Below are positions 12 through 47,263 of a stretch of DNA of 64,000 nucleotides, piece after piece. Each line of letters starts with the position of its first letter. Position 1 is the stretch's first letter. The notes under the pieces are model-generated. The model worked only from the letters and a program-made list of their open reading frames with translations, was not told the origin of the DNA and did not search any database. Where the stretch lies: the NCBI GenBank assembly GCA_017654735.1, contig JADPYG010000091.1, positions 434,001-498,000 of the forward strand, in the 5' to 3' direction. The translations under genes were made by a program, and so were the position numbers. This DNA is from Vishniacozyma victoriae. Lineage: Eukaryota > Basidiomycota > Tremellomycetes > Tremellales > Bulleribasidiaceae.

Positions 12-1286
12 CTACCCGCCAAGTATGGAGGTGAGCTTCTCTTGAGGGTGCTTGTGAGACGACAGACTAATGACAGGCAAATACACCGTCACTCTTGTCC
101 CTGGTGATGGTATCGGTCCCGAGATCACTGACTCTGTCAAAGAGATCTTTGATGGACTCAAGGTCCCAGTCGAGTGGGAGCAGTACAACGTCTCTGGAGA
201 GACTGCTGCTGGAGAAGGTCTCTTTCAGCAGGCAATGGAGAGTTTGAGGAGGAACAAGGTCGGACTAAAGGGTGAGTCCCCTTGTCTAGATATATATACC
301 AAGTTGTGTTCGAGTCAAACACTAATCGCAGGTATCCTCCACACCCCCATCGACCAACACGGCCACAACTCATGGAACGTCGCCATGCGTCAAACCCTCG
401 ATATCTACGCTTCCGTCGTCGTGTGCAAATCCCTCCCAGGTTTCCCTACCCGACACGAAAATGTCGATTTCGCCATCATCCGAGAAAACACTGAAGGAGA
501 ATACTCTGGTCTCGAGCACTCTTCTTTCCCAGGTGTCGTAGAGAGTTTGAAGGTTTCCACCAGGGCCAAGGCTGAGCGAATTGCTCGATTCGCATTCGAC
601 TTTGCCATCAAGAACAACCGAAAGGTAGTCCCTTTCCTACGTATGGTGAGGACAATAGCTGACCTCATAGAAAGTCACTTGTGTCCACAAGGCCAACATT
701 ATGAAGCTCGGAGATGGTCTTTTCCTCAACACATGTAAACGAGTCGCAGAGCAAGAGTACGGACACACTGGAATTGAATTCGATTCCATGATTGTCGACA
801 ACACTTCGATGCAATTGGTTTCCAAGCCTCAGCAATTCGACGTCATGGTCATGCCAAACTTGTACGGAAACATCGTTAGCAACATCGGTGCCGGTATGTC
901 ACTCCTCCCCTTTCATATACAATGCTGATATCTCTAGCACTAGTTGGTGGACCCGGTATCGTCCCAGGATGTAATTTCGGACGAGAATACGCTCTATTCG
1001 AACCTGGATGTCGACACGTCGGAAAGGATATCATGGGAGCCAACAAGGCTAACCCCGCCGCCATGATCCTTTCTTCAACCATGTTACTACGACACCTTGG
1101 TTTGGAGTCTCAGGCAAATGTTATCGCTTCTTCGGTTTACGATGTTATCAAGGAGGGAAAGATTAGGACTGCTGATATGGGTGGTGGGTCCCTATCTCCT
1201 GTTCGATCATGATGGTGACTGATGAATTAGGAAACACATCGACTACCGATTTCACCAAGGCTGTTCTTAACAAGTGTATGGCTTAG
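12..1286 (+). CDS. IDH1: NAD-dependent isocitrate dehydrogenase subunit 1, 5' end outside window
   Basis: Mitochondrial TCA-cycle enzyme subunit: isocitrate + NAD to 2-oxoglutarate + CO2. Exons read as 12-30, 77-271, 332-624, 671-893, 938-1183 and 1231-1286. They sum to 1032 nt, an exact multiple of three, and end in TAG. The visible protein opens with [20 protein letters not shown], which matches the start of the mature Idh1 fold. It continues with the substrate-loop stretch [11 protein letters not shown] and with [19 protein letters not shown] near the C-terminal third. The mitochondrial targeting exon lies left of the window. The KYGG...TVTL opening and the ESLKVSTR region resemble the regulatory Idh1 subunit more than catalytic Idh2; that assignment is from memory of the yeast proteins. 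Introns are 44-60 nt with CTAAT/CTGAC branch points. Confidence 0.95.
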
Positions 1287-1400
1287 ATCGAGTACTGAGT
1301 ATATTACAGGTTATATACATATGGATCAGGTACCATTGACATCATGAACAATAAACACGTAACCCGGAGACGAAATTGATGATCGATGACGACTGCTCCT

Positions 1401-2550
1401 CTAGAACTCCTCTGTGACTATAACTGATCCTTCGCTTTGTCCATGTGGTTCCCGTGTGGGCACAGCGGCGTCAGAGTCAGTGAATCCCGGGGGCACGACG
1501 TGGCTTCGAATATCTCCGAGCTCATCTAAGGGAGGGAGGGCGTCAACGAATTCTCGCTCAGTCGCAGGGAGCGAATCGATCCATGGATCGACCCATGGAG
1601 CGACGCGTGTGGGGTCAGGATAGGCTTCTCGCACAGTCTCATTTCTTGCGCGAGCTGCTAAAATGTAAGGAGCGAATTGGAGAGCAGTGTCCGCAAGACA
1701 GAGATCCGGCACATCCACCCCCGCCCGACGAGCATTACGGCGATAGCACGTCTTGACTGAATTTCAGTGTAAACACGTTCTTTGTGACTCACTGTCCTCA
1801 TAATTTGGAAGAATCGCCTCTGGGTTCCAGTATAGGTTCATCGGCGCGGTACCATTATCAAGAACCGAACGTATGGCTCCCAATACAATGTCCTCGTCGG
1901 AAAACGTCGGCCACAACCTTGTAACTGTCTCACGTTGACTTTCACTACATGGTAAGTTCTGATACCGCTCTATGCACGAGACTTACGCATCATGATCCAT
2001 GATATTGATTGCTGTACTTACCTGTGAGATCGTCTGCCAGTCGGTCCGAGGCTGTCCCAATTGATCTGCAACGCGGTTCCGCAACTCTGTAACGGCATCC
2101 TTGACGAGTAATCGGCGGTATGTATCAAAGCCTAGCTAATTAGTATCCATAGGCGTCTACGCCGTGCACACGTACCTGTTACAACGGTACGGTGTGCGAC
2201 AATTGCAGACTGTCGCCTGATGGTCCCAATCCGCTTGAAAAGAGGGTGATGGGGATTGCCCAGGACCCCTGTTTGCTGCACCCACATCAAGGTGTCATGC
2301 GTAGCCCACAATTGCTGAGTTGTCAATCTGCGCCTCTTGGTCAGCTTGATTGTTCTGTGATCTATAGAGTGGGGCTCACTGACGGATCATTCCGGCCTCC
2401 TACTGTGAGACCGCAAATCCACCGGGCTAGCTCATCCTTAGTCTGAGGCTGCCGCAAGGAATTTGCATTGCTGGCACTCTGGCCTGCGTTATTGAGCGTG
2501 ATTGGTTGAGAACTGTGAGATGCGTTGATTATCGTGTTGGGGGCTGACAT
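1401..2550 (-). CDS. Orphan array gene 1, unrecognised family
   Basis: Function unknown. Five exons on the minus strand (2550-2380, 2335-2176, 2131-1987, 1944-1793, 1756-1401) give an open frame of 328 codons, stop included. Exon 1 is low complexity (Ser/Asn/Gln). Exon 2 contains LTTQQLWATHDTLMW. Exon 3 contains the family core TYRRLLVKDAVTELRNRVAD followed by QLGQPRTDWQTI. Exon 4 is 152 nt, entered in phase 2 and left in phase 1, exactly as in the three paralogs downstream of it on the plus axis. The last exon is longest and proline/acid rich. No signal peptide, membrane helix or known domain is visible. Intron 3 needs the second of two donors (gtaagtctc) to stay in frame. The gene converges with IDH1, whose stop is 115 bp away. 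Confidence 0.7.
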
Positions 2551-3334
2551 GATCAGTTGAACAGATTGGAATGGTCCATGCAGAAAGTGATGAGGAAAAG
2601 AATAGAAGCAACTTTTAGGGGCTCAGTCGAAGCTTTGAATCGTTCTGGTGGCAAGAACCCTCCGTTTATGGCAAATAAAAGGAGCAATGTGGAGCCTGGA
2701 GCGATCCGGGGATACTACAGAACAAACCGCGCCACACTGGTAGGTTGTCAAGGACGGCAAGGATGGGGCGGCGGGCCTGATTGAGCGGCGGGCCTGATTG
2801 CAATCTTGTCAAGGCAAGGCTGTGATCACCAATTGAAAAGGTATGAGTGTATTGATACTCATGAGGTATCATTGATAGTATCGTGTACATGCTCTTAATC
2901 ATGGGCTGATCACTTGCAAACCTTTGGGACACTTTCCTACATCCTACCTTTCATCCTGAGACTAACTTCCTCCACTGCATTATAAAACTTGGCGCCGCGG
3001 ACTGCGCCAGGAAGAACATCCCGGTGCGTGTCATACAGTCATCTCCGGGTGAGTGAAGTTCCAGTCATCCCAGCAACATTTAATGATGGGCTCGCGTTTG
3101 TTCTTCAGGACCATTTCTGTCGCTTGAGGAACGCATGTCTCATTGAACTTGCTGTTTGGCCCCAGATGGTTTACACGTTTTCACGGTAGACAGGAATCTG
3201 ACGTCTCTGGCCTAGAGATTTTCCGCCGTCTTTGACTTGCCCGGCCCTCCTCTCGGCCCCCTTATTGTGCCGGGAATTAGCGGTGCTTCAAGTGCTTTGA
3301 CCTACATGCCTCACTTTGAAATGCAAACATGGCC
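2551..3334. other. Intergenic, between array genes 1 and 2
   Basis: No gene is supported here; short ORFs on both strands show no recognisable protein. It holds the promoter side of array gene 1 and the 3' side of array gene 2. At 2768-2800 a 17-bp GC-rich unit (gcggcgggcctgattga) is duplicated in tandem with only its last base missing. Confidence 0.6.
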
Positions 3335-4036
3335 TTAGATGTGTAAAGTGACACCGGTCTCTGCCTGATGTTTTGCCCGGAAGTCCCGAAGAGCTAAGGG
3401 CGTGAGTGCTCTCCATCGGATCTACCTACCTGAATGCATTTGGCATCTGAGCGTCTCCTCTTCATAACCGTCGCGTATGATAAAACCCCACGCACGGGTC
3501 TTGAACACTGCGTTTTCGACAAGTGGGATGTTGGACAAGATTTTCCAGTATGTACCTGCCATGGTCACCACCTCTTCAGGCCTAAAGGTCAGTATAGTCT
3601 AGGCCTGATACTCACGTAATGGTCTGTTCCATGATCTGGTTCCAGGTGCTGCAGGATACGCCAAGGACTGGGGCTGCTTGCGTGTGCACTTCTTCGGGGG
3701 CGGTCTCGGTGAGCCGCTGGCAATATGTCGCGAGCACTGAAGGTCAACTTGTTACATTTACCAGGATTGAAGGAACTTTCCTGAACGCATCTTGTTTGTG
3801 ATCTCCTTTTGGGTGAAGCCGGCAGCGCTGCCGGCTGTAATCAAGTCAGTACGTCGCCTACTAGTCTCAATAGCATCTCCAGGTTTCCAGACATCAACCA
3901 CCGTATCGCATTGTTCCCATAGCTGTGCATTGGTCATTGTGTTCCTGGTATATTGGTAAAATCCCTGCTTAAGCACAGAAGGAGCTAGGTGTGTACGTAC
4001 GGGTTTAAATTCCCCTTCAGGTGATGTAATATCCAT
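3335..4036 (-). CDS. Orphan array gene 2, unrecognised family
   Basis: Function unknown. Exons read as 4036-4001, 3964-3787, 3736-3616, 3581-3430 and 3393-3335: 546 nt, 181 residues plus TAA. Exon 2 has MTNAQLWEQCDTVVDVW, parallel to LTTQQLWATHDTLMW in array gene 1. Exon 3 (121 nt, the same length as in array gene 3) has TYCQRLTETAPEEVHTQAAP then VLGVSCSTWNQI. Exon 4 is 152 nt with the family phases and carries Trp at spliced positions 13 and 32. The last exon starts SALRDFRAKHQAE, like SAISNLMRAAQEQ in array gene 3. Weak points: the exon 2 donor (gttcag) is poor, intron 1 is only 36 nt, and skipping intron 1 also stays open. Exon 2 contains a 20-bp perfect palindrome. Confidence 0.6.
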
Positions 4037-4691
4037 ACTTGTCGGGATGTGAGCTTGACCACAGACCCAGGTATTGTCTCATAGCTGGTCGGGACGGAGG
4101 GGGGCATGAGTAAGAGTTGAATGAGCTGTCGCGCAAAGAAGGTTATGCGCCAAGGGTTGGAGTCGATGTGATTGGAATTGTATCTGAACAGTATACTGTA
4201 TAGTATATTGTACGTCAAATTGGAACTCAGACCGCTTACGACTCATCTCTTCCTTACATTTCTTTTGCCCAGGAAGAAAGGTGGACGTACTATGTAACAT
4301 TTTCATCATGCATGAAAGGGCAGAGGCAGTTTTGCTGACTATCTACAACACATCCATCCATTTCTGAGCGCCTTCATTGGCATGGCTAGGAAGTAGAAAC
4401 AAACTGTCCTTGAGCCCCGCTATATACCTATAGACAGCTTGTGTGGCATGCGCAACATTGGCTTGCTGATGTCCAGACAGCACACATTGAGCCTACTAGC
4501 TTTCAACTGAGTGCCAGACAATGTCGCCCAGACCCCTCCTCCCATGATTGCCCCAAAAGGTCCGCTTTCGAGCAGCAACAACATTGGAAAGTCAGTAAGA
4601 CGCGGCCAAGGCGGCATGATGCATATACAGGGCAAGATGCCATACAGCCCAGACATTTACACGGGTTTCGAGCTCATTCAGATGCGGCCGA
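4037..4691. other. Intergenic, between array genes 2 and 3
   Basis: No gene supported. Short ORFs on both strands lack family motifs. An AT-rich stretch with repeated tatac/gtata words lies at about 4190-4215, upstream of array gene 2. Confidence 0.55.
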
Positions 4692-5647
4692 CTAGCTGTC
4701 GCTAGACTCATCACCACTCTCGCTGTCGCTACTAAACCATTGCCTCGGCACATGCTCATCCACTTCAGGGGAATCTGGAGACTGATTTGGGTCTTCCATC
4801 ATTTCGTATCCATTTGCCTCGGTGTTGTCAAGCCAGCTTTCAAGGGTCGCAGTGACCAAATTGATATTCTGCTCTTGTGCAGCTCTCATGAGGTTACTGA
4901 TAGCTACACTTGTCAGTGCATTGTATCTCGAAGACATACATACCCGATTGGTATTTGCCACTGATCTCGATTCGGTCAATGTAAGTCGACTTCCGAGTAT
5001 TCCAAAAATCGGCGACCCTCAACTCTTGGTCAAATTTTGAAGAGTCCCTCAAGGTCTGCCAGTGTTCTTCGACAAACGTCCGAACACTGTCTCCCCTGAT
5101 GCGTCAGTAAAAGCTTACGATATCAACGCACATGATTTTGCCATCCATAAAAGACGCCAAGGTCTGGGGTGGGACCTCAAGCCGGGTAGCTAGCTCGGCA
5201 CAGAGAGAGCCCTCGGCATCTGCAAGATAGAAATCGCGGTATGACTCGACTACTGTTGCGATTTTCAGCTTGACAGAACAGATCCGAAGTTGACTCACAC
5301 GCCTCCGTCCTCCCCTCTCGAAGTACCCTTGACCTTGTTGTGTCATCTGGTATTGCCGCTCTGAGATTGCGATGGAGCTGCGGATCATTGTTGTCGATGT
5401 CGTCCGCAAGTTTCTCGATGATGTGTTGCTGTGCCCACTTGTCTTCCGCCGTTTTATCACTATGGGTTTTAGCAGAATCGATCACTCTACAACACACATG
5501 GTCTCTTCTGACTCACGGCTTTGATTTATCGGTCAAGCGATCGCGCAACCATGTCTGTCCTGAAGTGAGACGATGAAAGTCACGAGCAAGACGCGAAGTG
5601 TCAACGTCTGCGCTCCCGTTTGTATAGTTGTTGAAAACCCTGGTCAT
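4692..5647 (-). CDS. Orphan array gene 3, unrecognised family
   Basis: Function unknown. Exons 5647-5517, 5459-5299, 5252-5132, 5095-4944 and 4903-4692 sum to 777 nt, 258 residues plus TAG. Exon 2 begins DKTAEDKWAQQHIIEKL, then NNDPQLHRNLRAA. Exon 3 (121 nt) is the family core: SYRDFYLADAEGSLCAELAT followed by RLEVPPQTLASF. Exon 4 (152 nt, phase 2 in, phase 1 out) has Trp 13 and the FWNT motif at spliced position 31-34. The C-terminus is acidic and serine rich (SSDSESGDESSDS), resembling casein-kinase-type sites. No membrane segment or signal peptide. This is the cleanest member of the array: every splice site fits the local consensus. Confidence 0.72.
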
Positions 5648-6573
5648 TTGACTTTATAGGTGGATCAACAGTGTTTGATCTGCAAAGGTATAGTGTAAGT
5701 GTGAAAAGGTGGCAAGAGTGGCTTTTACTAGGACGGGCACCGCCGGAGATGTTACTGAAAGTGGGTTCTCCATTCATGCCAGGCTAGTCTCCAATGGGAG
5801 CCACAATTGCCTCATTGGTGATGAGGCTGAAAGGATCGCTCACAAAGTTCACATCAGGGCCACCAGCCGGCCTTAAGACGGAGCAGGGCATAACATTCAG
5901 ATACTCTTGGGCTCCCGACGGCGTGCGATAGGGCATGCAGCTCGCATAGCGGACCATGTAGTCCAATCAAAATAGATAACAGAGGTAACAGAAGTATCCC
6001 CTGGGCCCTTTCAGCTGCCAAGACCCATATCGCGGACAGGGCAAAGGGGGTTTCACATCTTGTCTGTTGTCAAAATCAGATTTCAAGGCAGGCGTGCAGT
6101 ACATTACAAGATGAATCCTCAAGCCTTCTAAATAAGGGGACCATCTAACCTGGTGAAGTCCATTGATGAGTGTCAGCTGGACTGTAGAGCCAGCAAGGCT
6201 TCGGTACCGGTCGCTCAAGGCGGTCAAGGACAAGCCAGGCAATCAGTCTACTCAGTATGGGCTGGTCCACGTCTGTAGGTTGCGGCTTCAGTATACAAAG
6301 CTCCGTTAGGTTGGGTATCCTTATAATTGTCACGCAACACAACTTTCAGTACACCTGGTCAAAGCGCCTGTCTTGCCAAAAGAGATCTTAGTTTGGGAGC
6401 TGATTTACTGAAATACGCCTATCTTGCTATTGCCGGGGTGGTAGGGCAGAGTGATTTAGAAGTTATGTGCATGTGATCTGTGTGCAAGGACTTCTGGTAT
6501 GGTAGTGATATTGACAGGATACAAAGGAGCAGCATATGAAGCCCTAGGCTCAGAAGGATGGCTGGAGAGCAGG
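5648..6573 (-). other. Spacer with unassigned coding-like segments
   Basis: Two minus-strand open stretches look protein-like but could not be joined into a gene: about 6342-6145 (contains ILKPQPTDVDQPIL and RLIAWLVLDRLERPVPKP) and 5966-5784 (contains SVLRPAGGPDVNFVSDPF, ending in TAG at 5784). They lack the motifs of the array family. They may be exons of one small orphan gene or remains of one. No RNA gene or repeat seen. Confidence 0.3.
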
Positions 6574-7544
6574 TTATTCAGACGAGCTATCACTTCTTTG
6601 CCTCCTTGCTCGGCGACCTCTCAAAGGGCGATGACTGACGGGAGACGCTGTGGCCAAAGACGTCGGGGCAGCACTTGATCTGGTCTGATTACCTTCTCTT
6701 TGACTTGCTGTCCCATGGATTTGGTTTCGGTATTTGTAGTAGGCTTACAATGAGCATGTGGTTACATTCGGTGCAGATGAGACAGCAGATGGACTTACCA
6801 GCTGCAAGGACAGAAGCTTCTTGCTCTGGGTTGCTGTACTGACCCAGTGGTGTATTCCAGACCGAAGCCCGATAGATAGCAGCATTGGCCTCCCGTCCCA
6901 CCTTGTCAAGGAATTGGTCGCAGAGTTCAGCTCCTTGAAACTGGGATCCACTACCGTATGAGCATCTTCTTGACTGGGCAATGAATAAGGAGGTAGGAAG
7001 AGAACTCACTCAAAAGTGCCTTGTCCCAGAGACTGCAAGGCTTCCTGCTTGACTCCAAGATCCTCTGCAACCTCATCCAAAACAGTTTCTCGTAGTACCG
7101 GAAGGTAAGCAACTCTGTCGGGCAGAGCATACCAATCGACAACTCTGTTAAGATCAGCCTCACTACCATCTTGCGGATGGAGACTGACCTTCTTGCACTT
7201 GTGTGATACAGGTTGCATCAAAAGTAGGGGGGTATGCTGTAGCTTTCAGCGCACTGGCGAACTCCTTCTGAACTTTGGAAGCAGAAGGAAGGGTACCCAT
7301 TGATCTCTCTGGAAGATTGCCATCCCTCCATGCAGAGATTTGCCTCACTGCCCCGCCTTCATAGCTTTGCTGCTGTCGAAAGCTTTGGGGATGAACATTG
7401 CGCCTGCAAGGATGATCAGCTTCAAGAGACCAAGCGCCAATAGCAAGCGGAAACTCACTTCTGAAATGCTCCATGAATTGTGTCCTGGAAGAAATCCCGT
7501 CGACCTTCAGAAGTACCTGGATATGTGCTGCCTGAGTGATCCAT
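6574..7544 (-). CDS. Orphan array gene 4, unrecognised family
   Basis: Function unknown. Exons 7544-7459, 7403-7189, 7142-7010, 6950-6799 and 6743-6574 sum to 756 nt, 251 residues plus TAA. Exon 3 (133 nt, 12 nt longer than in genes 2 and 3) carries VVDWYALPDRVAYLPVLRET and VLDEVAEDLGVKQEALQSL, aligning with the other cores after a four-residue insertion. Exon 4 is again 152 nt with the same phases and has VWNTP at spliced position 31-35. The tail is arginine/serine rich and ends RRQRSDSSSE, close in character to the acidic serine tail of gene 3. Splice sites were chosen to keep the frame; the exon 3 acceptor is aacagag and the exon 4 acceptor is acggtag. Confidence 0.65.
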
Positions 7545-8312
7545 TTTGGAAGAGATGACTTGTGGTACGGTGAAATAATGCTCAATCTGATTTGGAGAGA
7601 CGGGTTGTAGGTTCACTCAAGTATTCTGCCAGCTTTATGTGTTCCAGACTACAGCGATCCACTCATTGTCTTTTCCTTTATGATTGAGCCTGACCAGAGC
7701 TAGGAGGAGGCTCCAAGTTCATTGCCTAGAAGATTGATGTAAGGAAGACCAAAGGGTTGTTGAGATGAGGGAAGGACTTGAACTGCGGCGGTCCTTTCAT
7801 AGAATGCGTCTAAAAGGATAGCAAGGGATCACAATTGCGTCAACGCTCCACAATGCGAAAGGACAACCAATGTGGATGTGAGAGCTCAGTCTTTGGGATG
7901 GAGCAATGATGTGAGGAGAGAGGGATTGGGGGGTTTCAACCAGGCTCCACTTGTTGAAAGGAAATGAAAAGGCGTTGAGACCAAGGCATAATCCATACAT
8001 GACCCGGCCGGATGTGTACCCCTTGGGCACTGCAAAGAAAGGAAATCAAGGGGCTTGGGAGTTGAAGGGAGACCCGAATGAAAGGTGGGTGGTGATGGCA
8101 AAGATAGGGTCCGGCCGGCCAAGTTAGTTGGCTGGAGGCAGCCACCAGGAGCGGAAGCGGTTGTGGATCTGGACCAGAAGACTGAAAGGTATGATCAAAT
8201 ACATGGTATTGATGCAACTTTTACCCTTTCCGAAGATTCGCTCCTGCCGATGATCGCCCCCTATTACGACAGGTCGGGGCGTCCCTCATTACAGCCACTC
8301 TCCTAGAATCCT
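7545..8312. other. Intergenic, between array gene 4 and ferric reductase
   Basis: No gene supported. A few overlapping short minus-strand frames around 7797-8217 are proline/serine rich without recognisable domains or convincing splice context. This stretch is upstream of array gene 4 and downstream of the ferric reductase. Confidence 0.5.
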
Positions 8313-10537
8313 TCACCACCCGAATTCTCTGGGAAGCATCAGCTTGTCTCATAGCAATAGCGATGTACTCACTCGATAGTCAAGTATATATTCCTCCTCA
8401 CCTCCCCTCTCAATACCTGCTTCGGCTTGATCGCCATAGTCACAGCATCCGCGACAGAAGTATTCAGCGATAGCGGCCCACAAGCACCAACCGCGACCCA
8501 GCTGTACATCAGCTGAAGTCATCATAGCCTTGAATAAACTTACTCTCCATAAGCCGTTAGCGACATCTCCCTCTCTATCATCTCCTCAAAGTCTGGACGA
8601 CCACTCCGTATTTCCACTATCGCATTGTGCTCGACTGTGCGGGTACTTGACGTTGGGCTATCGAATGGTGATACCTCAGTTTCTGCCGTGATATGTGGAC
8701 GTCGGTCGTCGGTAACGAAACCCTCTAGTACTGGTGGGTCCGTAGGTTGGGGTTTTGACGTTATGAATATCGTTATATGGAGTAGACCGGGTGGAGCTGC
8801 TAGACACATGTCCTTGAGGTGGCCTGATATCCAGTCTACCTGTTCTACATCGTCAGTACCGAGGTTTCAGATGGGTGGAACGACCTACCAGGTTTCTTTA
8901 CGACCCAGATGAATGACAGACGTTTCGTCGCTACTGCTATCTTCCTATCTCCTGCTTTCGAATGCATCGCTCTGGCACGCCGCACGATATCGAGTGCGTT
9001 GGAGAGGCAGTACGATACCCCTGATCCAGCCGAGACGAGGACGAGCGTATCGTAGTCTTCACCTAGATGCTTCTCATGACCGTCTGGCTCATCAGCAGTA
9101 GCCTTTCACAAACACTTACAAGGACCTTCAGACCAAGCGTCGATCGGCACCGGTTCACGTTTCCCTTTCGACCCATTGCCGATACCCGCTGTCATCTCCT
9201 CATCATTTCCACCACCCATAGCCTTCTTGAACAGCTGCCTTGTCGCCCCTCCCCTCACTCGTATCAGCAGCTCTTGTGTACTCTCCGAGTTCCTTTCGTT
9301 ATTGCCCTGATCGAGCGGTCTCGAGATGTTGCAGACCGTAAATGGATGTCCCCCGATACTCTCCTTGAATGCGTGGAGGTAGATGTGCTGAGCCGGTCTC
9401 CAATCCTGTCGAGTCCTGACGCTGACTAGCATCGTGTCCTCGGTGAGAGCTTGAACTGTTCCAGTTGGTCTGCCGTCCCGAGGTGCTTTGCGAATACCAT
9501 GGTATAGAATTATTCGGAATGTACGAGCTATACGGTCTAGCCAGTGGAGGACGAACCCGGCCCAGATCCAGCCTTGTTGTTGTGGTCGATGGATGACTAG
9601 GCACCCAACGATGATGAACCAGAGCGATACATGTTGGATCTAGTATCAGTCGAAGTCTGGATACCACTCACGTAGAAGAACTGATAGGCGCGATTGCGGA
9701 TCGGCCTTGTTGCCATCCCGATCATGTATAGGAATGCGGCGAAAGCCACCCAGCCCCAGGCGACGTAATGCTGACCGTGTACCGCTGGGTCGACATTGGG
9801 AACATTTACCTAATGGTCAGACTTGTCATGACGATATTCTGAACTCACGTAGATCCGCCCGCCGATATGGATAGCACTGGTTATAATGATGAACCGGGCA
9901 CTCCACCGATGTAAAACATTCAGACTCTCGTATGCGAATCCAGTCAATTTGGATAGAACATTGTTCTTTCCAGCCAGCCCGATGACTAGTGGTATGTTGG
10001 CGTAAGTGAGTCGAGCGGCATGGTGCGCTTGCCAATCGATATCGCCAGAGGCACCAAGAAAGATAAGGAGGAAGTTTAGGAGGGCGTAGCTGGTGATGAG
10101 GGATAATTGACCGATGTTGCCGAGATTGAGTAGATTCGCGATCTATCCGTCAGTGTAGTCATGGTAGGTTGTACATACTCTTATACGCCGGATACTGTAT
10201 TTCCTCCAGAGCGCATTGAGGAACGGTAATGTAAACCTGGTATCAGTGTCCTGAAAGCGAGTGCGACTCACCTGACAGATGTCTGCCTCACCTCGGGACG
10301 ATCCACCCTCGGCTGGGGTGGCCTTTTTGTATGTACATTGAACCCTGCCCTCTTTCTCCGGTGGTACCCTTGCTTCAAGAGGACCACGTTGGCGATGGTC
10401 GGTATACCCAACATCGCAACGATTCCAAACCATAGGTATACTCCGACATAACGATTATGAAAATTGAGGCGCTCAAGCTGATCTGATGTGTATGTACGCT
10501 CATGTGTCCGCCCGCTATTGTGTGGTGTTGTTTCCAT
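8313..10537 (-). CDS. Ferric-chelate reductase, FRE family
   Basis: Integral membrane flavocytochrome that passes electrons from NAD(P)H through FAD and two haems to extracellular metal chelates, feeding iron and copper uptake. Order seen after splicing: N-terminal helix (VYLWFGIVAMLGIPTIANVV); a run of membrane helices carrying the haem histidines (LHRWSARFIIITSAIHIGG, then FFYVSHVSLW and a later His before RPQQQ); the flavin-binding motif HPFT; and an NAD-binding region (LVLVSAGSGVSY, then WVAVGACGPLSL) near the C-terminus. ATG at 10537; it ends EEFGW then TGA at 8313. At least eight short introns. It sits inside the orphan-gene block on the same strand. Iron control is likely but no binding site was identified. 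Which paralog it is cannot be told. Confidence 0.9.
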
Positions 10538-23989: not shown

Positions 23990-24089
23990 AATCCATGACG
24001 GGATTTGCACCCGCGACCACTGAGGGGCTCAAGGTATCTCCAATTGAAGCTCGGAGCTCAGCGTGCTTAAACTACTACACCACACGGAC
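23990..24089 (-). tRNA. tRNA-Arg(CCG) with an anticodon-loop intron
   Basis: Minus strand, 5' end at 24089. A full cloverleaf can be drawn. The acceptor is GTCCGTG with CATGGAT (two G-T wobbles). The D arm is GTGT/GCAC. The anticodon stem is CTGAG/CTCAG with loop CT-CCG-A before the intron and C after it. The variable loop is TGGTC. The T arm is GCGGG-TGCAAAT-CCCGT. The intron is about 25 nt, beginning GCTTCAATTGGAG, after position 37; its GGAG can pair with CTCC of the anticodon loop, as in typical tRNA introns. The mature anticodon CCG reads CGG arginine codons. T-loop residue 54-55 reads TG rather than the usual TT, which lowers certainty slightly. A short T-run follows the 3' end. Confidence 0.75.
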
Positions 24090-33699: not shown

Positions 33700-36600
33700 A
33701 TGTCTCGCGAACTCGTCTCGTCGTCATCATACCAACTTGCCAACTCCACGCCATCATCTAGCATGAAATCTAGCCAGTTACGCATATCGGTCAAGTCCAA
33801 GAGAGCACCACTGGGCGAAAGGGTCGACAACCACGATCACACCACTCCCCGTCAACACCTCGTCAAGTCTGTCAAATCAGTCATTAGACCTCGAATCATC
33901 TCTACAAAGTCGACCGCTAGTCCATCAAAGTCATCTACATACCGCCCATCACCTCGAGCGGCAGTACAAGCTTCCCCTTCATCCTCAATCGTTTCATCTC
34001 CAGCGGGAGCAAATGTCTCGAGACCGGGACATACACCTCATCCTCGCCGCTCATCTGTCGGTCTTGCATTCCTTGGACATGATGTTTCAATGTTGATGGA
34101 TACTACTCGACTGGACTTTGTGAGCGATACGGATGAAAGTGAGGGAGATGAGCCATTGGACAATCTGCTCGCAAGAAGGGGAGTGATGGGACCAGGGAGA
34201 TTGATGACGCCAGCCAACAGTCAGGAATCTCGGGTAAGCTCATTGTCCCTCTTGCAGTCTCAGCTGACATTTAGCCCAACTCACAACAACACACTCTCAA
34301 GGAGCCGTCTCCACGTCGTCTGGCTATACGATTACCTACACCTCCAGCCTCCCAATCAGGTACCGATGTCGAAGAAACAATCTCTCGAACGCTTGTCCGA
34401 CCTCGACCAGCACCTACACCTCCACGTCGATCTGCAGGCCCTTCTATCCTGCTCAATGGAATGGCATCTCCAACGCAAGATATCTCGCCTAATCCCCGAA
34501 GGAAAAAGTCTCCTCGAGTCGATGAAGCTGGACCTTCGCAACTTCGCTCCCCATTCGAGATTGCCACCAGCACTACTTCGCCCCGTCATCCAAGGGATAG
34601 AGTCGAGATTGTCATTGGTCAGCCATCGCGTAAATCAGTCTCGCCCTCGGCCACGCCCAAAGCAAGCAAACCGAGAAAGAGCAGGGTATCCACCAAAACC
34701 CCGGCTTCTCATCCATTATCCCAATCAACTTCTTTCCAACCCTCTCGAGCGAAAAGGGCACCAGCAACAGCCCCTCAACCGAACAGGCGAAAATCAACAC
34801 CTGCCGCTCGTAAACCCTCTCCTCCTAGGACAACAGCCAAACCTAAATTCGCAAAGACACCAAAACGGCTCTCAATCCCAGGCCGAGGTCGTGCTCGGAA
34901 ATCAGTCACTCCAGCTGAATTGAAAGCCATGATTGGTCTACTCCCAAAGCCGGTCGAGCAGGGTAGTCCCTCCGACGATCCTCTTCTCCTAGTCAGTGAC
35001 GATGAGGACACTCGCAAGACTCCCGCAATCAGACCTTCATCCCATTCTGGGAGGAATACGGGGTCAAGATCGGCTGCTAGGATTATCGATTTCGATGCTG
35101 CCATTCAAGGTCGCTCGAGCGTAGGGGAGGTCGTGAGGGATTATGAGGTACCTATTCATGGCTCGGAACCGGATTATGATGTCGCTCGGGATTACGGATT
35201 CGATTCAGGTGATTCAGATGATGAGGACATGGGGAATGATACATTTGTGAATGTCGCTGGGGCTCGAGCAAAGATGCCAATTTCGGTAGATCTGGCGGAT
35301 CGACAGGACGAGGCAACACAGGAGGAGGAGGATGAAAGGCTCGCCAGCTCAAGATCCGACTCGCCTTTCCTAACTCAAGAAGCGGAAGTGCGATACTCCT
35401 CACCTGCTCCATCAGTCCGAGCCGCCAGCCCAGCGAAAGAGGATTCTCGACTCGTCTCTTCGCCCGTCATCGCCTCTGTCGCCTCGCCTGTTCCATCAGT
35501 CGCCGCTAGTCTACCCTCGCCTTTCCTCTCACGTTCTACGAATTCGCCTCGATTGAATAGGTCAACCACTGCTACGCCTGTCGTTCATTCTCATGGCCTA
35601 CCTTCGCCTGCTCCTTCCTCGCCACTTCGGATGATGGAGATGGAGCAAGATGTAGCACTCTCGCCTCGTTATGCCCGGTCCCAGACAGGTACCCCTCGAG
35701 CGACCACCGTGGTTGTCAACCAGGAGCTCAACGATGGTACCGCACCAGCCTCTCCCGCTTACAGCGAGAAGTTCTCCACTGGTCTGCCCTCGGCTCCCTC
35801 GTCTCCACTATCTACCAGATCACGAGGTAACTCCGCCACGCCCCGATTCACCGAACAATTATCAACGCACTCGCAGGGTATGGATGAAGAGGAAATGCAG
35901 GATTCATGGAATGCCAGTCCACTCATATTACTTGGAACACCATCCGCCCTTGGTCTGTTCATGCCTGAAGAAGCCGATGGGATGTCTACGCCATACTCGC
36001 ACGTTGGGGCGGAACCTGATACTCCTGCCCCCGGCTTTTGTTCGCCCACTCGGTCAATCTCACATGTTGAATCACCAGCTCCAGTGGTGGAGGCTTCGGC
36101 ATCGCCAACTCTCTTTGCTTCTCGGGTCGCATCACCAGCCCGGTCTATCGCTGCTAAAGTCGCATCACCTGCTCGTTCTCTTGGATCGCCTGCTCGCTCC
36201 CTCGCTTCTCAAGTGGGGTCACCTATCCGACCAGTCGCTGTCCAGGCTGCATCGCCTGCTCGTTCGACTACTTCACAGGCAGCTGAGCTTCCTGTGAGTT
36301 ATGCTCGATCACCGAGACGATCTCCGGTCTGTCTGCCTCAAGATATGACTCTACCAGACGAAACGCCAATCATCTACGCCAACTCGCCTAGGAAATCGCC
36401 AGTCAGTCTACCTGCCGAGGCAGTCAATGAAGGCACGGTCGAGGAGCAGCCATTACCAGTCGTCTACACCCATTCACCTAAGCGGTCGCCACTCGCCTAC
36501 TCCCAATCACCTCGACGGTCCCCAGTCTGCTTACCTGCCGACCTGGAGAATGATGCCGAAGATGAAGCTGGGGATAAAGAAAACATGGCGCCTGTTCAAT

Positions 36601-39163
36601 CGACTACTCCAACCTTCTCTCCTCCGACGCTAACAGCGACTCCTCCTATGTACGCATTCACTTTCTCCCCCCGAATCGCATCCCCGCTTCGAATCGCCCA
36701 TAATCAAGCATCCACTCTGCAACGAGACAGCATCGCTCGAACGTCTCAATCGCCTATACCAGCTGTTGAATCATTCCACGAGAGATTCGCCGAGGTTGAT
36801 GAATGTCCCAGTGCGGATGTTACTCTAGAGGGGAATAGTGCGGATTGGAGTTTGAGTGATGAGGGTTTACCAGAGATGTATCGTGAGGAACATGGGCTTG
36901 GTTTGGACCTCCAAGGGGAAGATCAAGAGAACGACGATAACCTGTCTGGATCCTTATCAACTGCTGAAGATAGCGTGGGCCAAGAGGAGGAGGATGATTT
37001 GGTCGATTCTTCTATCGAGCAGGAATATGATCTGGAGCTCGGAGCCGATCCCATTACCCAGCTAGGGGACGTCGCAGTCTCGAAGCCAGAGGAGGAAGAC
37101 GAAGAGGAGGAAGCGGAGGGATCTGAAGAAGAGGAGGAGGGACAGGAACCAGATATAATCGCGCCAATTTCGACTCTCTCGGACGAACAACCTCCAGCAG
37201 AAGGGGAGAGTACCGATTCTGAAGAAGCGCCATCCAGCGACGACGAGCCAGAGGACGAGACCGCCCAGGAGGAATTGGAGGAGGATCTACCTGCTACACC
37301 TGCTCCTGTCAAGATCGTTCTCAAGCTCATCAATCGGGGAATCGTCAAGATCGAACCGCCTGCCTCCCCAGTCAGGGCGGACCAAGTAGACGCCTCTGAA
37401 GCTCGATCTACCACGCCCGCTTACGATCCGCCTCAGCCTATCGTTGCTGTTCCTGTGACTCGATCACCTGCGCCTGCGGTTTCGACATTGTATCCCGCCC
37501 TACCTGCTACACCTATCACTACGCCTCTCCCGCCTCTTGTATCCACCACTCCCCTCGGAACTCCTCCAGCTAGGCCACGATCGCCTGCCCCGCAGCAAAG
37601 TCTACCCCATTCCTACGACCAGAGCACTCTACAAGCTGGTCCCTCTACTCGACCACGATCCCGACTTTCTCGTCAGATTCCCGATAGTCCCGAACAAGAG
37701 GAAAGTGATTCCATCAGAGTCCGGACTCCTCGTAGTCTCGGTCTTGAGCTCGACAATGCCGAGGCCGACAACAGTATGCGATCTGTTGTCGAGGTTTCAT
37801 CCCTTGATCCCAAAGCTGCGGCTCGAGCTGCTGCTATCTTGAAACTTGTAAGCTCATCCGTACCACCTGTGGCGAGGCTGACGGGCAGAACCACGCATAC
37901 ATCGAACATGGTGATATTTCGAAACTTGGCGAATCGACTGCTGCCCGACATCAATCAATGCATTCGGCTCGACTCGACAAGCTCGATGCCTCTCGTCGTG
38001 AAGACAAGACTGAGCTTCTCTACGAAGCCGAGCTGGAGATCGTCTCGACTCGCCGAAGTCGATCTAGGTCCTTGTCTCGGTTCAGAGGAATCAGCGAGGC
38101 ACCTACTGAATTACCATTGCCAGGCGCATGGAACGGTACACCCAAGCGGAAACGATCTGCCCATCTGCAGATCGAAGCTCCTAAACCAAGCGCGACGTGG
38201 GGTGTATCTCAATGGAAGAAACTTGAAAAGGTCTTTAGGGCAGAGAGGGAGATTTGGGTAACGGAACGTAATGTGAAAGCGATGCCTGGCGGATTTATTG
38301 GATGGGCGAGGATGTCCACTTTTGGACCACCTGCTGCGACTGCTGTCCCTTGGGATCCGACTGGGGTGGTCGATAGGTTCCTGGAGGAACAGGCAATCTC
38401 GGAGAAGGAGCAAGTGGGAGATTGGTCAAGGTACGTCCATCTTGCGCAATTATGAAGGGAGCTGATCTATAGGGATATGCTGTATACCCGAGTGGAAGCT
38501 CTCGAGAGGCATGCGGAACATCGAAAGATTAAAGAAACGTCTCAAGAAGAGAGATCACCCAAGAAACCAAAGACTGCGCCTGCTCCGCCATCTACCGTTC
38601 GAAAGTTGTTTGGATGGGCCATGCCTTCCGCTACCAAGTCTACTGTTCCCATCTCTACCTCGGAAAGTGTACAGAAGATGGAGAAGGGTAAAGGGAAAGC
38701 GAAAGAGGGAGGGCAGACATTCATGGACCGACTTGAAGCTCTCCAGAATCAACCCATGACTCAGGTGTCGATTCCTCGACCTACCCCCATCGCCAGCTCG
38801 ACTCCTGATACAGTTCCACCTCATCCGTCTTCTCCTGCTTGGAAGAATGCTTCCCGCCCCAACGCCCACGCTAGCGGTAGAACTATCACCCGCCCAACGC
38901 CCCGAACTCTATCTGCCATCCTAGCTGAATCGTCCTCTTCAACCACCTCCAACCGAGGTCAACTTCATTCATCCCTCTCTCAACGATCTGCTGCACTCGA
39001 TGCTCTATTTAGTGGATCTACCTCTACATCCACTAAGCCGGTCGTACAGATCAAAAGAAGTTCGAGCGTTAAAGATATAGTCAGGGGATTTGAGGATTCG
39101 GGGGCTTTGGCTAAAAGTACGGGTGAGGAAGGCTTGAGAAGGGTTCAGAGTAGACCGCTTTAG
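33700..39163 (+). CDS. Large SP/TP-rich protein with KEN box, unrecognised
   Basis: Not recognised. Exons 33700-34233, 34275-37847, 37889-38430 and 38473-39163 give about 1,780 residues. Almost all is predicted disordered. Dozens of Ser-Pro/Thr-Pro sites are present, many of full CDK type (SPRKSP, SPKRSP, SPRRSP), arranged as diverged repeats of the form YxxSPRRSPVCLP around 36300-36540. A KEN degron sits in DKENMAP just after the repeats, and an acidic block follows (EEEDEEEEAEGSEEEEEGQ). A folded part is likely at NHAYIEHGDISKLGESTAAR through WGVSQWKKLEKVFRAEREIW and FIGWARMSTFGPP. The combination suggests a cell-cycle-regulated nuclear or spindle protein degraded by APC/C; that is inference. 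Confidence 0.85.
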
Positions 39164-40749: not shown

Positions 40750-43700
40750 ATGTGTGGTGTAGGGTTCATCTGTCACATCAAAGGACATGGCAGCCACAAG
40801 ATCGTGAGCGATGCGCGAAACATCCTCTGCAACATGACCCATCGGGGTGCCAGTACGTGTTTTGAACCAGGATCGCCGCTGTACTGACTAGTAGCCGGAG
40901 CCGATGCCCGAGATGGTGATGGTGCTGGTGTCATGACTGGTATCCCCCATGAATTCTTTGTTCGAGAGACCCCCCACTCGTTCGACAATGTCATTCCCGA
41001 CGAAGGTCACTATGCCGTCGGAAACGTTTTCCTGTCGACGACCGATTTCGCCGCTCAGCAAGCCACATTCGAGGAAATTGCCAAGGGACTAGGATTAAGG
41101 ACATTGGGATGGAGAGATGTACCTTCCGACAACTCGATCTTGGGTCCTGCTTCCCGATCCAAGGAACCTAGAATCAGGCAGCCTTTCGTTGTGCTCGAAT
41201 CACACTATGGATCTGGAAAAGAGAGCCAGGATGGCGATTTCGATGCCAAGTACTTTGAACGACAATTGTACGTTCTCCGAAAATCGGCCACACACAAGAT
41301 CAGTCTCGCCAAGAGCTTCTACATTTGCTCCCTTACCCCTTCCAACATCATTTACAAGGGTCAGCTCTCGCCTGTCCAAGTCTACAACTATTTCCACGAT
41401 CTCAACCACGCTCTGTACTCGTCCCATTTCGCCCTTGTCCACTCTCGATTCTCTACCAACACTTTCCCATCCTGGGACCGAGCTCAGCCTATGCGATGGG
41501 CCGCTCATAATGGAGAAATCAATACTGTTCGAGGAAACAAGAACTGGATGAAGACGAGGGAAGGACACCTCAAGTCGGCGCTCTTTGGCGACGAGCTCGA
41601 TCTCCTCTACCCTATTGTTGAAGAAGGTGGATCCGATTCTGCCGCTTTCGACAATGTCCTCGAGCTCCTCACCGTGAACGGTGTCCTCACCCTACCCGAG
41701 GCAGTCATGCTCATGGTCCCCGAGGCTTGGCAAAACAACGACTTGATGGAGCCAGAGAAAAAGGCATTCTACAACTGGGCCGCTTCGCTCATGGAGCCAT
41801 GGGACGGTCCTGCTCTCTTCACCTTTTCTGATGGTCGATACTGTGGAGCCAACTTGGACCGAAACGGTCTTCGACCTTGTCGATACGTCGTCACCAACGA
41901 CGACATCATGGTCTGTGCCTCTGAAGTCGGTACCATCTCTATCGAGCCCGAGAGGATTATTCAAAAGGGTCGATTGAAGCCTGGACGAATGTTGCTCGTG
42001 GATACCAAGGAAGGACGAATCGTCGACGACAAGGAACTCAAGATGAACACTGCCAGGCGACAGCCGTTTGCCGCTTGGGTCGAGAACCAGGTGATTCGAC
42101 TTCCCGAGGTTGTTCGACGAGTAGCTCGACACCAGGATATCGGCGTTGTACTCGACGATGTCCCCCTCAGTACCGATCCCAAGCTACTCGCTTTCGGATT
42201 CACTATCGAACAGCTCAACATGCTCATGTTGCCCATGTTGCAAGATGGTCACGAAGCACTTGGGTCCATGGGTAACGATGCTGCTCTTGCTTGCATGTCG
42301 TCTGCTCCACGAAACGTGTTTGATTACTTCCGACAGCTTTTCGCTCAAGTCACCAACCCCCCTATCGATCCTATTCGAGAATCCATCGTCATGTCGCTCG
42401 AGACCATGGTCGGGCGAGAGGGTAATTTGCTTGAAATGAAGCCTGATCAGCTACACCGACTCCACCTCAAGTCGCCCATCCTTACGATCCAAGAGATGAA
42501 TGCCGTCAAGCATTTCAAGCAGTCTCATCCCGATTGGCCATCCATCACTATCGACATGACTTTCCCCAAAGCCGAGGGTCTGCCAGGATACCGAAACGCC
42601 CTCAATCGAGTTCGACAGGAATGTGTCAATGCCGTCAATGCCGGTATCAAGGTCCTTGTGTTGTCGGATCGAACGATCGGTCCTGAACGATTGGCTCTTT
42701 CGGCCGCTTTGGCTACAGGTGGTGTACACCACTATCTCATTTCGCAAAAGAAGCGATCGGATGTCGCGCTCATGATCGAGACTGGAGAGGCTCGAGAGGT
42801 TCATCACGCTTGTGTTCTCGTTGGATACGGTGCCGATGCCGTCTGCCCTTGGCTCATTATGGAGATGATCTACAAGGTTGTCCGGGAGGGAATGTACGTA
42901 CTGTCGTGGTGATTGTGCTAATAACCAGGAGCAAGGACGGACAGTCTGCCGAGAAGCTTATTGCCAACTATGCCAAGGCGATGGACGAGGGTATGCTCAA
43001 GGTCCTGTCCAAGATGGGAGTCTCTACGCTCGCCTCGTACAAGGGTGCCCAGCTATTCGAGATTCTCGGTCTTCACGAAGAAGTCGTCTCCGAATGCTTT
43101 GTCGGTACCGCTTCCCGAGTCCAGGGAGCTACTTTCGAACTCCTCGCCATGGACGCTTTCGAGTACCACGAGCGAGCATGGCCCAGTCGAGATACGATCG
43201 AGATTCCCGGTCTACCCGAGAGTGGTGAATACCATTACCGACAAGGATCTGAAATGAGAATCAACGACCCTATTTCTGTTGCTCAGCTCCAGGACGCTGT
43301 TCGACAAAAGAACCAGTCGGCTTACGATGCCTACTCGAAAAACTCGAGAGAGGCCATCAAGCGAGGTACCCTCCGTGGTCTGCTGGAATTCGATTTCGCC
43401 AGTGCTACCCCTGTACCTATTGAACAGGTCGAGCCATGGAACGAGATTGTCCGACGATGTGTCACCGGTGCCATGTCGTACGGATCCATTTCCATGGAAG
43501 CTCATACCGCACTCGCCATCGCCATGAATCGATTGGGTGGTAAATCCAATACTGGAGAAGGAGGAGAAGATGCCGAGCGATCCATCCCCATCCCCGGTCC
43601 AGGTGCCGATGCCGATGGACCATTCACGCATGCGATGGAGCTCAAACCCGTTTGGGATTCGCGACGATCAGCCATCAAGCAAATCGCTTCAGGTCGATTC

Positions 43701-46700
43701 GGTGTCACGTCCAACTATCTCGCCGATGCCGACGAGCTGCAAATCAAGATGGCTCAGGGTGCCAAGCCAGGAGAAGGAGGAGAATTGCCAGGACATAAAG
43801 TCTCGGCATCCATTGGTCGAACGCGACACTCTACTCCTGGTGTCACGCTTGTCTCGCCACCTCCTCACCACGACATCTACTCGATTGAAGATTTGAAGCA
43901 ATTGATTTACGATCTCAAAGCCGCCAACCCCCGATCCCGAGTTTCCGTCAAGCTCGTCTCGGAAGTTGGGGTTGGAATTGTCGCTTCCGGTGTCGCCAAG
44001 GCCAAAGCCGATCATATCGTTATTGCTGGACACGATGGTGGAACAGGTGCTGCCAAGTGGACTTCGATCAAGTATGCTGGTCTACCTTGGGAACTTGGAC
44101 TTGCCGAGACCCATCAGACTCTAGTCCTCAACAACCTTCGAGGCCGAGTCACTGTTCAGACCGATGGTCAGATCAGGACCGGTCGAGATATCGCGATTGC
44201 TACGCTGCTCGGTGCCGAAGAGTGGGGGTTCGCCACCACCCCTCTGATCGCCATGGGTTGTATCATGATGAAGGCCTGTCACAAGTAGGTCTATTATGCC
44301 AGAGGAGAGCTGATAATAGAAACACATGCCCCGTCGGTATCGCTACGCAGGATCCTGCGCTCCGAGCCAAGTTTGCCGGTCAGCCCGAACAAGTCATCAA
44401 CTTCTTCTACTACATTATCGAAGAACTCCGATCCATCATGGCCAAACTCGGTTTCCGAACCATTAACGAAATGATTGGTCGAGCCGACAAGCTATGTGTC
44501 GACGAAACCCTTCGAACGCCCAAGACTGCCTTGCTCGACTTGTCTGCCATTCTCAAGCCCGCTCACTTGATGCGATCCGATGTCGCTACCTACCGAGTCC
44601 AGCCTCAGGACCACAAGCACTATGTCCGACTCGACAACAAGTTTATCGACGAGGCTGAACCTGCACTCAACAAGGGTCTACCTGTTGAAATCGACTGCGA
44701 TGTCGTCAATACCGATCGAGCCTTGGGTACCACTCTGTCCTACAAGGTCAGTAAAAAGTACGGAGAAGCTGGTCTACCTCGAGACACGATCCATATCAAC
44801 ATGAAGGGATCGGCAGGTCAATCACTCGGTGCTTTCCTCGCTCCTGGTATCACGATCGAACTCGAGGGTGATGCCAACGATTACGTCGGCAAGGGTCTGT
44901 CGGGAGGTCGATTGATCGTCTACCCACCCAAGCAATCTACCTTCAAGGCCGAGGAAAACATTATTATCGGAAACGTCTGCTTCTTTGGTGCCACTTCCGG
45001 ATACGCCTTTGTACGAGGTATCGCCGCTGAACGATTCGCTGTTCGAAACTCGGGAGCCAACTGTGTGGTTGAAGGAACAGGTGATCACGGATGTGAATAC
45101 ATGACCGGAGGTCGAGTCGTCGTCCTCGGTCTTACCGGTCGAAACTTCGCAGCGGGCATGTCGGGTGGTATCGCCTATGTCCTTGACATGGCACATAGCT
45201 TCGGTCCAAAAGTCAACAAGGGGACGGTCGAGCTCGGTCCCGTTAGCGATCCTCAAGAGATTGCAGAGCTACGATCCTTGATTGAAGATCATCGACACTT
45301 TACAGGATCCGAGATTGCCGATCGAGTCCTCAAGAACTTTAACCGAGTCTTGCCCATGTTTGTCCGAGTCATGCCATTGGACTACAAGAGGGTCTTGGAC
45401 GAAGAGGCTGCTCGCGTCGCAGAGGAAAAGAAGAGGATGTCGGTCATTGATCTTATTCCTTCCCAGACTGCCTCCCAGGTCGACTTGGTCACGACCGGCT
45501 TCGATTCTGCTCTTCCACGAGACGCCAATGCCCTCAACATCCCTACTTCTCGACTGGTCACTCCCAACTTGTCGCCCAAAGTCAAGCCTTCCGAGCCCCA
45601 GATTGTCGACGTCGAGGATTCGATGGTCGACGAAAACACGAGCAAGGAGAGAATGGCCAAGATTGACAAGACGCGAGGATTCATGAAGTACAAGCGACTC
45701 AACGAATCGTATCGACCTACCCGAAAGAGGGTCAAGGATTGGAAAGAGATTTCCACCCGACTCTCTCCCAACGAGCTCAAGGTCCAGTCGGCTCGATGTA
45801 TGGATTGTGGTATCCCCTTCTGTCAATCCGATACGGGCTGTCCTATCGCCAACGTTATCCCCAAGTGGAACACGCTCGTGTTTGAAGACAGGTGGCAAGA
45901 TGCCTTGAACCGATTGCTCAAGACCAATAATTTCCCCGAGTTTACCGGTCGAGTCTGCCCTGCTCCTTGCGAGAGTGCATGTGTTTTGGGTATCAACGAA
46001 GCACCTGTCGGCATCAAGTCGATCGAGTGCGCCATTATCGATAAAGGATTCGAAGAAGGGTGGATGGTTCCTCGACCCCCAACCCACCGAACCGGTAAAA
46101 AAGTCGCCATTATCGGATCTGGACCTGCCGGTCTTGCCGCTGCCGATCAGCTCAACCGAGCCGGTCACCTCGTTACCGTTTACGAACGACACGATCGAAT
46201 TGGTGGTCTCTTGATGTATGGTATCCCCAACATGAAGCTCGACAAGGCTATTGTTCAGCGACGAGTCGACCTCATGGCTGCAGAAGGTATCACCTTTATC
46301 AACAATGCCCATGTCGGTGTCAATGTCGATGCCGAGGAAATCAAGACTACCCACGACGCCGTGATTGTCGCTACCGGAGCTACATGGCCACGAGACTTGA
46401 AGCTACCCAACCGAGAGACGGATGGCATTCACTTTGCCATGGATTTCCTCATGCCAAACACCAAGTCTCTTGTCGATTCCAACCTCGAGGACGGCAATTA
46501 CCTCAGTGCCAAGGGCAAGGACGTTATTGTGATTGGAGGTGGAGATACCGGAAACGACTGTATCGGTACATCTGTCCGACACGGCGCCAAGTCGGTCGTC
46601 AACTTTGAACTGCTTCCGGAACCCCCCGCGAGCCGAGCTGCCGGTAACCCATGGCCTCAATTCGCACGAGTCAAGAAAACCGATTACGGACATTCAGAGG

Positions 46701-47263
46701 TTATTGCCAACTTTGGTGGTAAAGATCCAAGGGAATACTGTATCTCGACCAAACGATTCGTTGTCGAGGACGGCAAACTTAGAGGTCTCGATACCGTTCG
46801 AGTCGAATGGACCATGGTCGCTGGGCAATGGAAGATGGAGGAAGTCAAGGGGTCGGAGAAGTTCTACCCTGCCGATCTTTGCTTGCTCGCTCTCGGGTTC
46901 TTGGGACCACAGAAGGAATGTATCGAGGCACTAGGTGTGAAACAGGATCCTCGAAGTAACGTCCAAACTCCCGCCGGCAAATACTCGACAAACATCCCAG
47001 GTGTTTTCGCAGCTGGTGACGCTAGACGAGGCCAGTCATTAATAGTCTGGGGGATCCAGGAAGGCAGGAAATCAGCCGTTGAAGTCGACGAGTTCCTTAT
47101 GGAGACGACCCGACTACCTTGGCAAGGAGCCATTTCGAGAAGAAATTGGGTAGCACCGAAAATCATCTCCAACAAAGACGGAAACCTCGCAGCAGCCGCA
47201 TCCGAGGCATCATCAGATAGACCAGGGATGGACGCAGAGACTGTATCAGTGGCAGCTGCATAG
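40750..47263 (+). CDS. GLT1: NADH-dependent glutamate synthase (GOGAT), fused form
   Basis: Makes two glutamates from glutamine and 2-oxoglutarate with NADH; the key assimilatory step paired with glutamine synthetase. Exons 40750-40852, 40895-42893, 42929-44284 and 44320-47263 sum to 6402 nt, 2133 residues, the usual length. The class II amidotransferase domain starts [12 protein letters not shown], with nucleophile Cys2. The FMN/synthase domain follows, with the [3Fe-4S] cysteines 1145, 1151 and 1156 in [12 protein letters not shown]. Then come the GxGxG-type domain (from about 1180), the 4Fe-4S region ([28 protein letters not shown], from about 1646), an FAD-type site [12 protein letters not shown] near 1751, and an NADH site [11 protein letters not shown] near 1891. 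The start has A at -3. The propeptide found in yeast Glt1 is missing. Confidence 0.97.

Follow-up and report, generated by a model that had tools for sequence, protein, structure and literature searches.

Four diverged tandem genes in the fungus Vishniacozyma victoriae: homologous exons and a putative helix-turn-helix core

Introduction

Genomes commonly contain tandem arrays of orphan genes; in most, the members cannot be traced to each other once their similarity has faded. The question is raised by four genes at positions 1401 to 7544 of a 64-kb stretch of the Vishniacozyma victoriae genome (assembly GCA_017654735.1, contig JADPYG010000091.1, positions 434,001 to 498,000), which we call the window. 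Are these genes copies of one ancestor, and what could their proteins do? The original prediction, made from the DNA letters, described them as tandem copies of an unrecognised and fast-diverging family, each with five exons. On balance we favour the reading that they are old tandem duplicates of a single ancestor, and that exon 3 (helix-turn-helix, HTH) and exon 4 (further helices) build soluble, probably nuclear DNA-binding proteins. The HTH fit of the exon 3 core is new relative to that prediction.

Results and Discussion

The four coding loci lie head to tail on the minus strand. Enumeration of spliced models places their ATG codons at 7544, 5647, 4036 and 2550 (genes 4 to 1). To compare them, peptides were anchored at the splice borders and aligned without gaps. 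BLOSUM62 scores were summed over pairs and expressed as z against shuffles. Exon 3 of genes 2, 3 and 4, anchored at the donor (39 residues), gave a z of 5.9, the first 26 residues of exon 3 in genes 1, 2 and 3 gave 6.6, and exon 4 of all four genes (50 residues) gave 5.2. A rotation control, in which helix periodicity is kept, returned 5.6, 6.8 and 4.8 in the same order. We also drew coding windows at random from nine long frames within the 64 kb. Against these, the exon 3 core gave a z of 7.1 for the four genes together (3/20000), the motif having been used to fix the register in genes 1 and 4, and a z of 4.9 for genes 2, 3 and 4 (11/20000).

The strongest test of homology is a leave-one-out scan. 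A model of exon 3, the intron and a 152-nucleotide (nt) exon 4 was built from three genes and run over both strands of the window, and the held-out gene ranked first in all four cases (among 79, 77, 80 and 79 candidates). The scores were 15.0, 11.2, 33.8 and 22.1, while the background peaked at −2.7, −13.8, −15.5 and −16.2; the scan presupposes the 152-nt exon 4, and real splice sites supply part of this margin.

The residues singled out in the original prediction are borne out by the sequences. Exon 3 of genes 1 to 3 carries the pattern Y..A..[LV]....A..L[GE]. Exon 4 has a Trp at spliced position 32 in genes 2 to 4 (within [F/V]WN in genes 3 and 4) and at position 13 in genes 2 and 3. The LW/KW motif reported for exon 2 is present too, but no similarity is seen when exon 2 is anchored at its 3' end (z −0.73). 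Anchoring exon 2 on the Trp gave 3.7–4.0; this value was not used, since the anchor had been picked on that Trp.

The anchored alignments of exons 3 and 4, the rotation control and the first ranks in the scan support common descent. The exon 3 and exon 4 peptides of the four genes are thus homologous, and tandem duplication from one ancestor, as originally proposed, is supported. The 'fast' part of that proposal is not established, because poorly matching paralogs may instead be ones that duplicated long ago.

Exon borders were examined with a small probabilistic gene finder trained on the window. It was seeded with the nine long frames and retrained on sampled genes; its training set includes the four array loci, and the earlier gene models were not supplied to it. 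Posteriors come from the first 9 kb, for which 400 parses were sampled in each of three settings. The finder puts exons at all four loci, in line with the four minus-strand genes first described, and in exons 3 and 4 it uses the frames that carry the earlier motifs.

Gene 1 (1401..2550) encodes 323 or 327 residues, depending on the model. Its likely exons are 2550-2384 (or -2380), 2327 (or 2335/2314)-2176, 2131-1987, 1944-1793 and 1756-1401. The posterior is at least 0.99 for exon 5, 0.51–0.77 for exon 4 (152 nt) and 0.73–0.87 for exon 3. Gene 3 (4692..5647) encodes 258 residues with an acidic, Ser-rich C-terminus in exons 5647-5517, 5459-5299, 5252-5132, 5095-4944 and 4903-4692. Its exon 3 (5132..5252) holds the HTH-like core and is paralogous to 1987-2131, 3616-3736 and 7010-7142. 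Its exon 4 (4944..5095; 152 nt, entered in phase 2 and left in phase 1, with Trp residues at positions 13 and 32) is paralogous to 1793-1944, 3430-3581 and 6799-6950. The finder gives this exon a posterior of 0.21–0.30, with competing lengths of 143, 147 and 156 nt. The alignment favours 152 nt, because a shift to the alternative acceptor drops the score from −100 to −251.

Gene 4 (6574..7544) was first modelled with exons 7544-7459, 7403-7189, 7142-7010, 6950-6799 and 6743-6574, which yield 251 residues with an Arg-rich C-terminus and require GAG and AAG acceptors. The finder agrees on exon 4 at 152 nt (0.58–0.90). It prefers a start at 7300 (0.58–0.74) over 7544 (0.16–0.32), and splits exon 3 into 7144-7133 and 7088-7010, the latter 79-nt exon being favoured (0.65–0.83) over one of 133 nt (0.10–0.21).

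Gene 2 (3335..4036) starts at 4036; its exon 3 ends at 3616, and its exon 4 runs from 3581 to 3430 (or 3496). An 86-nt exon 4 is favoured here over one of 152 nt, which has a posterior of 0.17 in one setting and <0.10 in the other two. The frames of exons 2, 3 and 4 were assigned by codon score. A 121-nt exon 3 requires a 25-nt intron and is out of frame with exon 2. None of 1868 five-exon models with introns of at least 34 nt combines a 152-nt exon 4 with an exon 3 of 121, 133 or 145 nt. Within 3583-3761 (minus strand), exons 2 and 3 are open in frames for which no usual joining intron was found. The 5' part of gene 2 may be damaged or decaying, or it may be spliced differently.

The proposed architecture therefore survives in part. 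An exon 4 of exactly 152 nt can be read in all four genes; support for it is good in genes 1 and 4 and weak in gene 2, while in gene 3 it is a possibility, and in genes 2 and 3 its posterior is below 0.5. Five exons in full frame were not recovered for gene 2, and for gene 4 the described exon 3 and start are not those chosen by the finder.

What might these exons encode? AlphaFold models the exon 3 core as a long helix joined by a turn to a second one (pLDDT 83). By reading, 38 of 50 Foldseek rows for this core are of HTH type, none of them significant. A hand-made consensus of exon 3 matched nine Pfam models, seven of them HTH types and all below the cut-off; nine shuffles of this consensus matched no Pfam model. 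A further fold search gave weak matches, with HTH-like proteins as the clearly recurring family among the 22 VIA rows listed, which exclude no fold. The other repeats among these rows are one alanyl-tRNA synthetase (two entries), drimenol/drimenyl synthase (two) and photosystem II (two). Exon 4 of gene 3 is predicted to be helical at low confidence. The HTH geometry of the exon 3 core is thus supported by models, not proven, and HTH-type DNA binding by the array proteins is likely, again short of proof. Proteins of genes 1, 3 and 4 have no long hydrophobic segment, so that, by this rough measure, they are unlikely to act in membranes or as secreted proteins.

Two known HTH groups resemble the core. 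The A-x2-L-[G/E]-V turn of genes 2 to 4 is similar to that of HTH_3/XRE-type proteins (PF01381; HigA and CylR2 in the PDB), to which the consensus (E 0.024) and Foldseek rows point; genes 3 and 4 also have a G after the second helix. However, the array match is below the cut-off and covers a partial domain, and the solved look-alikes are mostly bacterial. An overlapping stretch of the helix pair resembles the CENP-B N-terminal and homeodomain-like HTH (PF04218, PF13384). This match is likewise below the cut-off. No second CENP-B domain or transposase domain was matched and, by reading, there is no WFxNxR recognition helix.

We propose that exons 3 and 4 together encode the shared unit, which comprises about 90 residues. 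Exon 3 would form two helices around the A-x2-L-[G/E] turn, of which the second may read DNA. Exon 4 would add further helices with the conserved Trp (position 32 in genes 2 to 4), and these may pack against the exon 3 helices or dimerise. Each protein would be soluble and intracellular, probably nuclear. The partners of each copy could be set by the dissimilar first exons and by the charged tails, which are acidic in gene 3 and rich in Arg in gene 4. The duplication itself is presumably old.

Relatives were sought in several collections. No Pfam family matched the array proteins over the cut-off, all matches being sub-threshold. In the protein database, gene 3 returned 709 candidates, none at E<=1, and gene 1 exon 5 returned 14, none at E<=10. 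With these two queries and Pfam, the description as an unrecognised family holds. As a control, a query with a RhoGAP protein encoded nearby retrieved 227 proteins; among the 120 listed, the top match has 94% identity, and the top match from a named organism, Cryptotrichosporon argae, has 53%, so fungi are represented in the database. The absence of homologues is weak evidence, because many entries are reading frames from metagenome contigs, which would miss genes cut into exons of 40-50 residues; intron-cut genes on such contigs would probably escape this search. Gene 1 exon 5 had no relative in the virus collection, and no such family was found among the literature titles searched. PDB sequences searched with a profile of exon 3 gave nine matches at E<=10 (best 0.032, an oxidoreductase), and seven short families of DNA repeats were seen in 1300-8300; both were taken as chance.

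In the organism's own genome (11.58 Mb, 17 contigs; the window at 434-498 kb of the 538-kb contig C14), proteins of the four genes (exons 3-5 for gene 3) found themselves and one further match at E 0.19. The latter, locus L008 (C11:978934-979230), is 27% identical to residues 185-288 of gene 1, contains internal stops and is probably a chance match. Consensus peptides recovered genes 3 and 1 only; such searches therefore overlook copies that have diverged as far as genes 2 and 4. Between the four loci, the family model has no additional match. The joint model found no copy in 140,138 bases of C14 around the window, where the best score was −23.2 versus 11.2 to 33.8 for the held-out members. 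It covered 204 kb in all, beyond which the other searches would miss copies this diverged.

Several results weigh against old paralogs with an HTH core. Anchored at its start, exon 3 of genes 2, 3 and 4 gives a z of 2.35 (gene 4 carries an insertion). Against random coding windows, exon 4 reaches only 3.2 (60/20000 as high). Most pairwise local alignments fall short of significance, with p<=0.02 in 4 of 18 tests and p >0.02 in the other 14, and exon 2 lacks end-anchored similarity. The best complete model of any of the four genes has a posterior of at most 0.17, gene 2 cannot be rebuilt as described, and the described exon 3 of gene 4 is not the finder's choice. No HTH model in Pfam was matched over the cut-off; the signal is sub-threshold. 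The original prediction was also free to pick splice sites, and one could suppose that unrelated short genes were made alike by the choice of borders. We regard this as very improbable. The frames of exons 3 and 4 emerge from a finder that was not given the models, the similarity is gap-free and leaves no choice of gaps, and the held-out gene ranks first in each of the four scans.

If the genes are one family, they could still be tandem paralogs of helical proteins that do not bind DNA, such as a protein-protein bundle, the HTH look being a chance outcome of helical sequence. This is possible, but we think it rather unlikely, given the HTH types among the Pfam models matched by the consensus (7/9, against none for nine shuffles) and among the Foldseek rows (38/50). 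A third explanation holds that these are fast-evolving genes of conflict, mating, drive or self-recognition. They are tandem, no relative was found and the copies have strongly diverged, all of which would suit such genes; but low identity may reflect age. No homeodomain family was matched except the 'homeodomain-like' HTH_23, by the hand-made consensus and below the cut-off, and the single Homeobox_KN match found in the genome is on another contig (C3). WFxNxR is the recognition-helix motif of homeodomains; by reading, the array proteins do not have it. A search for STE3 gave no match in this genome nor in the control genomes and is hence uninformative on linkage to a mating locus. We consider this explanation improbable. 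Still less probable, in our estimate, is a new eukaryotic HTH family, limited to Tremellomycete-like fungi, in which the tandem array diversifies the DNA-reading helix, for example so that selfish elements are recognised or silenced as they change, or for mating or self identity.

The preferred reading, old duplicates with a putative HTH core, has a parallel in kind in aphids. Bicycle genes encode novel proteins whose gene structure is reported to preserve homology better than sequence search does (PMC9168663). The array family seems similarly diverged, its homology being traced better through gene structure than by sequence search. It differs in comprising four fungal genes, not known to interact with a host, with an HTH-like core and, by eye, no hydrophobic leader. 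The resemblance does not imply the same working.

The array sits between two recognisable genes. Convergent to gene 1 is a plus-strand gene of the isocitrate/isopropylmalate dehydrogenase family (70..1340; PF00180, E 3.1e-23), for which the Pfam match covers the open reading frame 70-738 alone and the end at 1340 is a guess from reading. On the other side is a minus-strand ferric reductase gene (8313..10433; PF01794, PF08030), with borders taken from one sampled model (8/60 samples). Elsewhere in the window, a plus-strand open reading frame of 1266 residues (34461-38261) has no Pfam match at E<=0.001. Glutamate synthase domains extend across three long overlapping frames at 40933-47263 (plus strand), as though split by introns. 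An Rfam tRNA spans 100 bases at 23990-24089 (minus strand) and perhaps contains an intron; ARAGORN, in its bacterial setting, is silent there.

Conclusion

Splice-anchored alignment joins the four copies of this array, and points to DNA binding as their putative biochemical role. To our knowledge, there are few examples of genetic conflict in this group of fungi. If the array proves to be fast-evolving, it would be a candidate genetic-conflict system in these fungi.

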